Below, in pieces: positions 12,142-15,797 of a stretch of DNA of 34,140 nucleotides. Location of the stretch: contig MHYA01000188.1 of assembly GCA_001825675.1 (NCBI GenBank), positions 20,854 through 54,993 of the forward strand, read 5' to 3'. Each line of letters begins with the position of its first letter. Position 1 is the stretch's first letter. Made by a program: the position numbers and the translations under genes. The notes below the pieces were generated by a model that worked only from the letters and a program-made list of their open reading frames with translations, made no database searches and was not told where the DNA came from. Source of the DNA: Planctomycetes bacterium GWF2_42_9. GTDB lineage: Bacteria > Planctomycetota > Phycisphaerae > Sedimentisphaerales > UBA12454.

Positions 12142-12936
12142 TTATTGCATGATGAAATTTAACAATTCTTCACATCCTTTATTAGCATCATCATGCTCTT
12201 CTGAAGAAATCATTTCAATTCCCCAATTTTTAAATATTTTCTCCTGTATCGGATTGGGGCGATTTGAAAAGAAATAAGAAGATGGCCTACCATTATCAGA
12301 TTCCCATATTTTAGTAAGTTTGTAAAATAACAATCTAATATTGATGTCAGATAAACTGTATCCAATAAAAAAAACAGATTTGCCAAGAATATCCGACCGC
12401 AGTTTAATATCTAAAGGATCCTCAAAATCGAGGCGACGAAAATAACTACTTTCATCAAGAACAATAGATTGGTCATCATCAAAATCACCATGAAATTTTA
12501 TTATCTGTGTTATACCATCATTTTGATTTAACAAATCGCTTACTTTTGCAATTTTTGTATAATTAACCTTATAATGTTCAAATGCCTTTTCAATCCATCT
12601 GTCATAATTTGTGGTATAAATAATTGGAAATTTTCCGTTAGCAATGAGTTCATGAACTTTTGATTTCTTCATTTCCTCTTCTATTTTAGCTGTATGCCAA
12701 TTTATGTCCATCCAACTACGTAACCCTCCAAGTTTAGTTTTTGTCAATTTATAATATTCTGCTAAAGCTAATGGGCTTCCGTATGTTTTAAAAACATCGG
12801 GATCAAAATCTAATTGTTTTGCAATTTCACTAATAAGCTGTTTCCATGTTGGTAATCCCAAGTTCGAAGAAATTCCTGAACCTACAAATAAAATAAGCGC
12901 TTTTCGTCTATAAGCATCTTTTAATAAATTCTTCAT
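12142..12936 (-). CDS. komC: SIR2-like NADase effector, KomC-like
   Basis: The 264-residue protein is a SIR2_2-type domain. It has [15 protein letters not shown] (Gly19-Ser20-Gly21, the NAD-binding loop), [15 protein letters not shown] (Asn110, Asp112), [10 protein letters not shown] (His149, the catalytic position) and [17 protein letters not shown]. Defence-associated proteins of this class hydrolyse NAD+ to stop growth of infected cells. Its ATG overlaps the komB stop by 4 bases (ATGA), with GGAG 7 bases upstream. As third gene after an adenosine deaminase and a HAM1 protein, it matches the effector of the reported Kongming system. The zinc ribbon of true sirtuin deacetylases is absent. 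The symbol is assigned by architecture and fold motifs, not by alignment. Confidence 0.82.
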
Positions 12937-13490
12937 TTTGAACTCCGAGTTAAATATTTACAAAAATTTTCAATTGCTTTCTTACGCATTGATATATCAT
13001 TTTTCAAACAACCCATCTCTGCGAAAGTTTTTTTGTGGCCTTCTGGAATAAATACACAATCCCATTGAAAATCTCTATTACCTTTAGGTGTATCTGGAAC
13101 GTTCCCCCCTATTTTTCCTTCAAAGAAATGGATTTTCTGTGAATCACAATAACCAATTACTGTTTTTGCAATTAAAAAAGCATCGCCTAAAGAGCAGACA
13201 ATTTTAGCGAAAGTATCTGCTCCTAATTTATCCCAGAAAATCTGCGTTAATCCACCAGGAAAATCATTCAAGCTTCTTATATACAATCCGGTATGTTCTA
13301 CAAAAACTTCTTTACCGATTATATCAAAAGCTTTTAAAACCTTGTCTTTAACTAATTTTTTTACATCATCTGTTTGAATTTCATCAATTTTAAGATTTAT
13401 AGGAATAACTTCTATATTGCTTCGTTCCAAAATCTGCTTAACTTCAACGATTTTGTATTGATTATTTGAAACAAAACGAATTTTTTTCAC
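12933..13490 (-). CDS. komB: HAM1/ITPase-like protein with altered active site, KomB-like
   Basis: The 185-residue protein has the non-canonical purine NTP pyrophosphatase fold: [16 protein letters not shown] (the S/TxNxxK nucleotide loop), [43 protein letters not shown] and [13 protein letters not shown]. In active ITPases the VE(D)TGL position holds the catalytic Asp. Here His66 replaces it, so pyrophosphatase activity is doubtful and a binding or sensing role is likely. In the reported Kongming system KomB works with the SIR2 protein KomC as the sensor for a deoxyinosine nucleotide. The start is GTG, overlapping the komA stop (GTGA), with AGGG 7 bases upstream. It also overlaps komC by 4 bases. 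Base composition is AT-rich like both partners. Confidence 0.85.
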
Positions 13491-14491
13491 TGTAGTCCCT
13501 TTATAAAAGTATATTTTTTTTGTTTATCAAACATATTTTCAATTTGTGAACTATCATTAACAGCATTAATAAATAGTTTATAATCTTCACTTAAAGATGC
13601 GTCATGAAATCCTGGATTATCAGAGCAAATGACAAATGGAACGTTATTTTTTATGAAATCAGAAACAGGATGCTTGTTTAGAGATTTTACGGCCCCAGTC
13701 AAATAATTGCTGATTGGACAAACTTCTATACAAATATCTTTTTCTTTCAAAAGCTGCATAACTTCTTTGCTTTTTGATGCAGCAGTTCCATGGCCAATAC
13801 GATCTGCTCCATAGTTAATAATAGCATCTCTAATATTATTCGGGTTTCCTGTTTCACCTGCATGTATTGTTATTTTTAAGTTATATTTTTCTTTTGTTAC
13901 TCTAAATAGTTTAGCTAATTCTTTAGGACACTGATAATCCTCGTCTCCTGCTAAATCAATCCCTACTATGGATTTCGGACATCCTAATGCTTCATACGCT
14001 TTCAATAGAGCTTTAAAATTATCAATACAATAATCACCTCTAGATACGGTTGGGATAAAACCTGCTTTAATACCGTATTTTTCTGAAAAAACATCTAAGT
14101 ATTCCAAAAGCCAACGCAAAGCTTCAGTAACTGTTATGTCGTTTAATAATGATATATATATTACACTGTTTCTAATTTCTGCGAAACGAACATTATCTTT
14201 CTTCAAATTTATAAACGCATCTTCCATCATAAGTTTGAGACTAGATCGATGATTTGGAACCAACCGAAAAACATCCCAAATGCGAATATATTCTTGTAAC
14301 GATTTGTATGGTTTTGTTTTTTCTAAATATGGATTTATATCAATAGTTTCTGAATAGAAAGATTTCTCTTTATGCAATATATCTTGCATCATTGCTTTCG
14401 AAATCAAACCATTTAAATGGACATGTAAATCTCCTTTTGGTAAAAATTCTACACATAACTCCTTTTTGCTGTCGTTCTCCTTGCTGTTCAT
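13487..14491 (-). CDS. komA: Adenosine deaminase-family protein, KomA-like
   Basis: The 334-residue protein is a metal-dependent amidohydrolase of the adenosine deaminase family. PKGDLHVHLNG supplies His23 and His25, TIHAGETG His210 and the catalytic Glu213, DRIGHGTA His234, and VICSDNPGF Asp291. All zinc and catalytic positions are present. In the reported Kongming system KomA deaminates dAMP to dIMP, which kinases turn into the dITP-type alarm. Whether this protein acts on nucleotide or nucleoside cannot be read. I chose the ATG at 14491 because AGGA lies 10 bases before it. An in-frame GTG at 14521 would add 10 residues. It is the first gene of the three-gene operon. The sequence is more AT-rich than neighbouring housekeeping genes, suggesting transfer. 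Confidence 0.85.
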   Translation of the reverse strand: MNSKENDSKKELCVEFLPKGDLHVHLNGLISKAMMQDILHKEKSFYSETIDINPYLEKTKPYKSLQEYIRIWDVFRLVPNHRSSLKLMMEDAFINLKKDNVRFAEIRNSVIYISLLNDITVTEALRWLLEYLDVFSEKYGIKAGFIPTVSRGDYCIDNFKALLKAYEALGCPKSIVGIDLAGDEDYQCPKELAKLFRVTKEKYNLKITIHAGETGNPNNIRDAIINYGADRIGHGTAASKSKEVMQLLKEKDICIEVCPISNYLTGAVKSLNKHPVSDFIKNNVPFVICSDNPGFHDASLSEDYKLFINAVNDSSQIENMFDKQKKYTFIKGLQ

Positions 14492-14902
14492 TGGCAAAAT
14501 ATCCTGATTTAAAGATTCCACAAAAACTCTTCATTTCAATTCTATCCATTTTTATTCCACATTCAATAAAATTCCTTTAAAGCATCTAAATTGGACGTTG
14601 GATGTTCAGAGTTCGATGTTGGACGTGAGAATTCGGCGGAAAAATGGACATATCAGACAAATTGGACGTGGCGGACAATATGGATTCAACCAAAAGGGTT
14701 TAATTCCCTTTTAAGTCTCAAATAAGAATTTTTGGGATTTTGTCCCATATAAGTCGCGGTTTTAAGGCCGCAACGGCGATTTTTAAAATTTTTTAAATTT
14801 GTTCGGTTTTTGTTAGGGTAACTCCAAACGTTTTGCCGATAAAAATTCTGATAAGACTTTAAAAAGTAAAAAGAAGAATCAAAGAAGACAAGGATGTGAA
14901 AA
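14492..14902. other. Gene-free stretch between komA and the lexA transcript
   Basis: These bases hold upstream regions of two divergent transcripts. TTGGACGT occurs three times (14591, 14619, 14662) inside a GGACGTTGGATGTT-type repeat phrase. Two hairpins follow, AAAAGGG/CCCTTTT (14692-14712) and TGGGA/TCCCA (14733-14747), then a GCGG/CCGC inverted pair near 14755-14772. A small palindrome ACTTTAAAAAGT (about 14859-14870) lies before the plus-strand gene and could be an operator. No gene is convincing here. Confidence 0.6.
14591..14670. repeat. TTGGACGT-type repeat phrase
   Basis: Three copies of TTGGACGT occur within 80 bases, two of them in a phrase of alternating GGACGTTGGATGTT and GATGTTGGACGTG. 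I recall this type of phrase from intergenic DNA of many bacteria. It borders the AT-rich defence-like operon on its upstream side. Confidence 0.5.
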
Positions 14903-15388
14903 ATGGACGAAAGAAACAGTTTCAGCAGGATGCCGCTTTGCCGATTCGGACCCGGCGGCTCGTACGTAAATGATTGGCCGGCAAGAGTATCCAAAACATC
15001 AAGCAAACCAATCGGTTCTGTTCTCGATGCAATATCAAAAATGCTGGATACAGTCATCAATGAGGAATTAATGCAGAATTCCACATTAGAAAAAATTAAC
15101 ACTGCAATACAGAACGCTCAATTAACTGATCTCACGGAGGACGAAATTGAGTACTATAAATCAAATGACAATAACGCCCAGACAGTTTCAGGTTCTGAAA
15201 CTGGTGGACAACTCACGGCAGAACCGATGCTATTCGATAACTATGCAGGAGTTGGCCAACATTCTGGGAACAAGCAGAACAACAGTATTCGAACACATCG
15301 CAGGATTAAAAGAAAAAGGACTGCTTTCAGCCGCACCTGGCAAGGCACGCTCTTTGAACCTTACGTCCAAAGCGTTAAAGTTGCTTAA
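14903..15388 (+). CDS. Small unknown protein overlapping lexA
   Basis: The frame begins at an ATG with AGGA 9 bases upstream and runs 161 residues. The first 85 or so (SVLDAISKMLDTVINEELM, LTEDEIEYYK) have the look of a real, partly helical and acidic protein. The last 80 (from about residue 83) overlap the start of lexA in another frame and become low-complexity and basic (THRRIKRKRTAF). I do not recognise the family. The true product may be shorter in evolution, with its original stop lost near 15150. Because it shares a transcript with lexA, translation of this frame probably affects lexA expression. The upstream half is more certain than the overlapping half. Confidence 0.55.
   Translation: MDERNSFSRMPLCRFGPGGSYVNDWPARVSKTSSKPIGSVLDAISKMLDTVINEELMQNSTLEKINTAIQNAQLTDLTEDEIEYYKSNDNNAQTVSGSETGGQLTAEPMLFDNYAGVGQHSGNKQNNSIRTHRRIKRKRTAFSRTWQGTLFEPYVQSVKVA
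15136..15149 (+). promoter_or_regulatory. Shine-Dalgarno that fixes the TTG start of lexA
   Basis: GGAGG (15136-15140) sits 6 bases before TTG (15147). The nearest in-frame ATG (15165) is 24 bases from it, too far. The lexA frame is closed by TAA at 15123, so TTG is the best start. Confidence 0.75.
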
Positions 15389-15797
15389 AGAATCGGCAGT
15401 CGAAGATTCCGCATCGGCTGAATCAAACGACGGCATTCCCCTGCTTGGCAGAATTGCCGCCGGTTCGCCTATCGAAGCAATCGAAAACGCAGAACGAATT
15501 TCGATGCAGACAACTTTCGGCAACGATGAAAACACATTCGCTCTTAAAGTTCAGGGTGATAGTATGATCGGCGACGGCATCTTTGACGGTGATTATGTTG
15601 TGTGCCAGAAAACCAATGTCGCGCAGAATGGAAGAATCGTGGCCGCCGTTGTCGATAATGACAGCGCAACAGTAAAACGATTTTTCAAGGAAGCAGACAA
15701 AGTCCGCCTTGAGCCTTCAAACCCTGCCTATAAACCGATATATACGCAGAACTGCACGATCGCAGGCGTTGTGGTCGGATTAATGCGAAAACTTTAA
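15147..15797 (+). CDS. lexA: LexA repressor (SOS response)
   Basis: The 216-residue protein has a winged helix-turn-helix at residues 8-75 (TPRQFQVLKLVD, ITMQELANILGTSRTTVFEH) and an S24 peptidase domain. The self-cleavage site is Ala105-Gly106 (GRIAAGSPIEA). The catalytic dyad is Ser139 (VQGDSMIGDGI) and Lys177 (SATVKRFF). It represses DNA-damage genes and cleaves itself when RecA is activated. The start codon is TTG, chosen from the strong GGAGG 6 bases upstream. It overlaps the preceding unknown gene by 242 bases in another frame, which is unusual. The gene ends in a strong intrinsic terminator. No known SOS box was recognised upstream, and planctomycete LexA sites may differ from those I know. 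Confidence 0.93.
   Translation: MSTINQMTITPRQFQVLKLVDNSRQNRCYSITMQELANILGTSRTTVFEHIAGLKEKGLLSAAPGKARSLNLTSKALKLLKESAVEDSASAESNDGIPLLGRIAAGSPIEAIENAERISMQTTFGNDENTFALKVQGDSMIGDGIFDGDYVVCQKTNVAQNGRIVAAVVDNDSATVKRFFKEADKVRLEPSNPAYKPIYTQNCTIAGVVVGLMRKL

Follow-up and report, generated by a model that had tools for sequence, protein, structure and literature searches.

A conserved gene overlapping lexA in Phycisphaerae encodes a putative SOS protein with a candidate sliding-clamp-binding motif

In the lexA-imuA-imuB-dnaE2 mutasome, an SOS gene is found beside lexA, and ImuB uses a clamp motif. Another protein with a clamp-type motif is SocB of the Caulobacter SocAB system, a toxin that, according to the accessible part of its description, blocks replication elongation through binding to the sliding clamp (PMC9690074). 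The same text gives QL(S/D)LF at the C terminus as clamp-binding motif, and an excerpt of a further study reports that, in the case studied, the glutamine at position 1 and the hydrophobic residues at positions 4 and 5 are conserved (PMC4549789). For alphaproteobacteria, the LexA box is given as GTTC-N7-GTTC in the accessible text of PMC3323433. Long out-of-frame overlaps are of a kind that is excluded by annotation, for which pop, lying antisense to ompA, is an example in the portion available of PMC7103648. The gene finder Prodigal allows, in the available passage of its description, same-strand overlaps of at most 60 bp (PMC2848648).

Here, we describe a gene (termed X) that overlaps lexA in Planctomycetes bacterium GWF2_42_9, whose genome comprises 4.86 Mb in 214 contigs. 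The window, i.e., the whole stretch of DNA that was analysed, is 34,140 nucleotides long, and the features of the locus are collected in Table 1. As in the mutasome, a putative SOS gene stands beside lexA, but X encodes a protein of about 160 residues without a Pfam match and is also present in genomes in which no Y-family polymerase was detected (e.g., G002, G003, and G006). X is likened to SocB by its candidate clamp-type motif and by a proposed action on DnaN, and differs from it in being part of a lexA unit, in overlapping lexA, and in carrying two LF motifs and a GPGGD motif. X-lexA and pop/ompA are both pairs of overlapping protein-coding genes of the kind excluded by annotation; X-lexA, however, is a same-strand and class-wide overlap, and in some genomes its frames are separated. 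Under the Prodigal limit as quoted, X and lexA cannot both be called. Searches of the open-licence literature gave one paper on Vibrio SOS but, among the matches listed and as judged by title, none on the X-lexA overlap, which does not show its absence from print.

On the comparative evidence of its sequence, X is a conserved protein-coding gene overlapping lexA. We propose that X and lexA form a two-gene SOS unit, in which X would be SOS-induced, largely disordered, and able to grip the sliding clamp, and to this reading we assign a probability of roughly 0.62. The initial annotation had described a frame with a good ribosome site that runs into lexA in another frame, and indeed both open reading frames are present, with AAGGA before X and 242 nt shared. 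It had likewise placed a GGAGG for the TTG start of lexA inside the first gene, where it is found 6 nt before the TTG.

Table 1. Features of the X-lexA locus (positions in the window)
Feature	Position	Strand	Remark
X (161 aa)	14903-15388	+	ATG start; frame differs from lexA
lexA (216 aa)	15147-15797	+	TTG start; Pfam LexA_DNA_bind E=1.2e-7, Peptidase_S24 E=1.7e-32
X/lexA overlap, 242 nt, two frames	15147-15388	+	lexA side is the winged-helix domain
X ribosome-binding site AAGGA	14890-14894	+	before X ATG; assigned by inspection of the sequence
lexA Shine-Dalgarno GGAGG	15136-15140	+	within X; 6 nt before lexA TTG
LexA-type operator, direct repeat GTTCGG-N5-GTTAGG	14801-14817	+	upstream of X; presumed LexA binding
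X N-terminal motif PLCRFGPGG (consensus roughly PxCxFGPGGD[FY])	14933-14959	+	outside lexA
X motif 1 EPMLF	15221-15235	+	QxxLF or ExxLF in relatives
X motif 2 QGTLF	15341-15355	+	candidate sliding-clamp-binding motif

X is apparently a near-universal SOS gene of a whole bacterial class, and no family model searched covers it. A query of the 90 N-terminal residues matched 39 of 59 genomes (own genome included) at E<1e-3, the best matches lying just upstream of lexA (one, in G030, on a split contig); LexA was found at E<=1e-10 in 53 of the 59, in some of them as distant paralogues only. A profile of X matched 344 of 397 Phycisphaerae genomes and 261 of the 283 good ones, many of the hits outside the order covering only the overlapped tail, as judged from a partial inspection. 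In 99 of 100 loci, a LexA-like frame overlaps X in the same phase, L163 giving none by that search. Both genes are present in 20 loci of other families (two of which are contigs of named loci) and in seven more, and GPGG is found in the X frame of 17 of the 20 and six of the seven. In a sample of the phylum, 41 of 392 match the profile, of which 39 belong to the class. The two weak matches outside it (G509 and G730) were read as a shadow of LexA: their X-frame ORFs lack QxxLF, and one contains stops.

A genome-wide scan, which relied on a single motif pattern, yielded 128 confirmed loci. The titles of 80 of these mostly name Sedimentisphaerales, Phycisphaerae, Phycisphaerales, or Planctomycetota, while a few disagree (Blastopirellula, Kuenenia, and uncultured bacterium); the order and class names given for the range of X are inferred from such record titles. 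Seven genomes (G007, G015, G027, G038, G048, G050, and G058) were without X in the class search, and in them LexA is either absent at 1e-10 or distant only; this comparison covers those seven, and ten more genomes of the order are also without X. A match to the CxFGPGGD DNA pattern in G050 lies, by eye, inside an apparent other gene and was taken as chance.

The motifs of X were tallied over 150 loci, which reduce to 121 non-redundant proteins. The N-terminal motif G[PT]GGx[FY] is present in 116 of them, one of the five exceptions being cut by a contig end. Motif 2, defined as the last LF or FF in X, is the best-conserved part of the protein: it begins with Q in 111 of 121, with QGTLF (49) and QGSLF (45) as the commonest forms and E, H, R, or S in the remaining 10 (L157 included), and it always lies 0-16 residues from the C terminus. 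An LF-type motif 1, sought 36-47 residues before motif 2 with preference for the candidate nearest to 40, was found in 120 of 121 proteins, the spacing being 40 in 111. It begins with Q in 51 proteins and with E in 43, as it does in the window. Both LF motifs are encoded within the overlap. As a side observation, X of several families (including L002 and many of the order) ends in KVA, KTA, or SAA, which is reminiscent of ssrA-like degradation tags. In family f4 and in many of the loci outside the order, motif 2 is followed by only a few more residues of X.

In general, QxxLF motifs of DnaE and Y-family polymerases bind the sliding clamp. In this clade, where both are presumed clients of the clamp, 8 of 10 DnaE proteins carry GQLGLFE, GQLGLFG, GQMGLFE, GQKGLFD, GQFNLFG, or GQASLFG, and, among 12 Y-family polymerase loci inspected (four of which showed another ORF), seven of the eight readable tails contain QxxLF motifs such as GQKLLFSE, QQLTLFED, and GQLELFEE. 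X has a QxxLF-type motif near its C terminus, and the resemblance of motif 2 to these polymerase motifs is the reason why the sliding clamp is proposed as the target of X. The most likely docking site for the tail of X is the beta sliding clamp (DnaN). With its two motifs some 40 residues apart, the tail could reach both pockets of a dimeric clamp.

The most serious alternative, which we nevertheless regard as unlikely, is that X is a real protein of the SOS unit whose LF motifs have a different target from the clamp, such as LexA, RecA, a polymerase subunit, or a protease adaptor. Many linear motifs that do not bind the clamp end in LF, motif 1 reads ExxLF in 43 of 121 proteins, and motif 2 mostly has Gly, sometimes Ser, at position 2, a deviation from the Leu of the strict QL[SD]LF consensus. 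Against such a target speaks that the DnaE and Y-family polymerases of the clade themselves use QxxLF, in many cases with an acidic residue after it, and that the position of motif 2 close to the C terminus is usual for clamp motifs, as stated in the accessible part of PMC9690074.

Searches for the family of X place the protein outside the models searched. Among 40 members searched in Pfam and NCBIfam, no family was matched by more than one member (best E 0.01), and neither a Y-family nor a RecA-like domain, as expected of ImuA or ImuB, was found; X of the window itself has no Pfam match. PHROGs gave weak hits only and no convincing relative, and no convincing relative was obtained from the PDB (best match E 0.37). 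The AlphaFold model of X is poor (pLDDT 60.6 and pTM 0.19), with helices at residues 36-56 and 59-71 and no confident fold; such a low-confidence model is compatible with disorder but uninformative. X was also considered as a partner of translesion polymerases. This idea found no support, as X does not track Y-family polymerases, and 23 of 40 relatives lack a match to PF00817.

A LexA-type operator stands in the promoter region of X. With up to 3 mismatches allowed, the window contains no other match, and 0.07 are expected. In most loci of the order, GTTCGG-N5-GTTNGG precedes X, with the reverse complement seen by eye in family f4. All 10 core bases are present at 111 of 139 scorable X loci (redundancy not removed, both orientations allowed). 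Of 3,000 windows placed at random in these loci, 149 also reached 10 of 10, and the operator is included in some of them. Of the 48 operator sites listed in 59 relatives, 38 lie at X-lexA and 10 elsewhere. Three of these 10 (L234, L281, and L282, in genomes G044, G023, and G019) stand 56-76 nt before a recA gene confirmed by Pfam, and the other seven operator-like sites do not precede recA. The position of X immediately after a LexA-type operator, which also precedes recA in three relatives, supports an SOS link, in agreement with the small SOS-linked protein suggested by the initial annotation. The operator resembles the alphaproteobacterial box as given in the excerpt of PMC3323433, reading GTTC-N7-GTTN here, but has a wider core (GTTNGG-N5-GTTNGG) and occurs in Planctomycetota. 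An element TGCCGATA was noted at window positions 14834-14841, and inspection by eye shows CCGATA elements like it close to the operator of many relatives; possibly, they are part of the X-lexA promoter.

If X were mainly a leader frame, its translation would open or occlude the lexA ribosome site and the protein itself would be irrelevant. The lexA Shine-Dalgarno sequence inside X fits this idea, as does a lenient match, by which 48 of 50 loci have an SD-like site ahead of a potential lexA start. Yet the conservation of motif 2 goes well beyond the demands of lexA, and X is open both where the LexA protease domain is lost (L157, L161, and L163) and where the overlap is gone (L076), which makes a mere leader improbable. 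In L157, L161, and L163, the lexA frame has 66, 126, and 71 codons, respectively, and no protease domain was found in any of them, while X is open with both LF motifs present (motif 2 of L157 being ECTLF). The tuning of lexA by X translation, which had been put forward in the initial annotation, thus cannot be the whole story. G018, with a contig equal in length to that of L161, has no other LexA at 1e-10. L163, which is absent from the X profile, matches it at 3.5e-29. Compared with its nearest relative, 26 of 64 positions are alike in the X frame of L163 and 20 of 64 in the LexA frame, and X is higher against all four nearest; in 300 control pairs, LexA was more alike on average (36.3 versus 29.8 for X), and X was equal or higher in 51. 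The operator retains 7 of 10 core bases in L157 and 9 of 10 in L161 and is unrecognisable at its place in L163.

In L076, X lies outside lexA and keeps QKWLF...QELLF, 40 residues apart. Its lexA alone uses CGT, TCC, and CTG at the constrained codons, where the others have CGC, TCT (or TGT), and TTG/TTA with one exception each; GCG at the constrained codons of L076 also occurs in one other locus. A profile from which L076 was left out found its X at 5.7e-16, compared with 0.062 for the best of 500 shuffled decoys. The tail alone was found at 0.0014 with this general profile and at 9.6e-7 with one built from family f4 tails, for which the best decoy reached 7.4e-4; all E-values refer to a set of 500. 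An origin of the L076 arrangement by tandem duplication of the overlap is not supported, as the similarity of its two DNA stretches does not exceed that of shuffles. The score of the lexA-like reading of X was also reached by 17 of 300 shuffles. The X-like reading of lexA scored 73, above all 300 shuffles (maximum 48), which conservation of LexA alone could cause.

It is still less probable that X is a shadow frame, kept open by LexA conservation and a codon usage that avoids stops, even though part of the X-frame similarity does stem from the conserved LexA helix-turn-helix (as apparently in G509 and G730). When synonymous codons were shuffled within each of 49 lexA genes, 131.8 stops were expected in the X frame over the overlap and none was observed, the stretch being defined to end at the X stop and the sum over related sequences not being a count of independent events; the control frame had 246 stops versus 201.8 expected. 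Synonymous constraint in the overlap, which the initial annotation had proposed to look for, is present in all five groups compared (43 of the 50 loci, one group being nested in another). The ratio of synonymous differences is 0.79-0.88 for lexA codons 9-79, lowest at codons 55-72 (0.51-0.68), weakly reduced at 37-54 (0.73-0.98), and shows no constraint at 1-18 (1.10-1.28), compared with 1.07-1.14 for codons 82-216 beyond the overlap. X thus combines stop avoidance with fewer synonymous changes, as a protein-coding overlap should.

The same holds for motif 2 in particular, for which the sequence comparison indicates selection in the X frame. The lexA residues GKARSL, which X reads as QGTLF, use CGC for Arg in 48 of 50 loci and TCT for Ser in 44 of 50; elsewhere in lexA, 92 of 383 Arg codons are CGC and 43 of 367 Ser codons are TCT. 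Under synonymous shuffling of lexA, QxxLF is expected at the motif 2 site in 0.7 of 115 loci and was observed in 104 (L076 and L163 were set aside, and four of the remaining 119 were skipped with a short, cut, or masked lexA frame); for 22 loci taken as outside the order, of which L158 and L159 were so placed by look only, 21 were observed versus 0.2 expected. This excess, the stop avoidance, and the reduced synonymous change contradict a shadow frame, as do the N-terminal motif lying upstream of lexA in 116 of 121 proteins and the cases of L076, L157, L161, and L163.

For the order, one lexA locus was taken per genome, 50 in all with that of the window. In 49 of them, X overlaps lexA in the same phase and no stop interrupts its frame there (two of the 49 are cut upstream by a contig end); in the exception, L076, X lies upstream of lexA, side by side. 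Wherever it overlaps, X ends inside lexA. Counted from LexA residue 8, the end falls on the identical base in 27 of the 49, and the ends span 45 nt overall, with an earlier stop in family f4 and a later one in part of f6. There is no conserved stop near 15150, which was to be sought in relatives, the stop in the window being at 15386-15388, and the upstream frame is conserved rather than the artefact of an indel. A recent stop loss with read-through into lexA, or an indel or assembly error, can practically be dismissed: no supporting point was found, and overlaps of the same phase and similar extent occur across order and class in many separate assemblies. X-lexA is a deep and long same-strand overlap that allows a direct test of how overlapping genes evolve, as it comes with natural controls: the frames are separated in one genome, and lexA has decayed in three.

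Returning to X as an SOS-induced protein that grips the clamp, we infer LexA control of X-lexA through the operator. LexA would repress the unit by binding to the direct repeat at 14801-14817, and DNA damage would release this repression. X would then be made from its own ribosome site and lexA from the second site inside X. In the protein, the N-terminal motif is followed by a central helix and then by a basic tail, in which the two LF motifs are spaced by about 40 residues. Its CxFGPGGD[FY] motif probably recruits one partner, whereas the last motif, Q[GS][TS]LF, may serve as the main clamp anchor and the first as a second, weaker contact. At the fork, X might compete with or manage polymerases during the SOS response. 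We infer disorder, partner recruitment, and the effect on replication alike. X points to a possible new way for the SOS response to act on the replication clamp.

A bolder reading, which we consider doubtful, would make X a class-wide SOS checkpoint factor of Phycisphaerae, in which the two LF motifs fill both pockets of one dimeric clamp, CxFGPGGD brings a second factor, and the clamp motif is written out of frame in the message of the LexA DNA-binding domain so that repressor and effector constrain each other's sequence. If this were so, mimicry of X might give phages whose small proteins carry CxFGPGGD access to the same partner. The motif PxCxFGPGGD[FY] was seen near the C terminus of small proteins on viral contigs (L305 2580-3023, L306 2800-3093, L307 2809-3084, and L339 3-455), three contigs being found by profile and four, including those three, by DNA pattern; mimicry of X or a shared linear motif are possible explanations.

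Two further observations concern other genes. Second LexA-like genes are found at G000:C41:2669-5596 and G000:C146:27147-30094, where extra DnaE-type polymerases follow within about 2 kb; they are perhaps separate lexA-dnaE2 cassettes, in an assembly that is listed with 7% contamination. On the minus strand of the window, positions 12142-14521 hold three adjoining genes with SIR2-like (PF13289), Ham1 (PF01725), and adenosine deaminase (PF00962) domains and PADLOC matches to the ThsA and CARF-ADA models, a trio that presumably resembles the Kongming anti-phage system.
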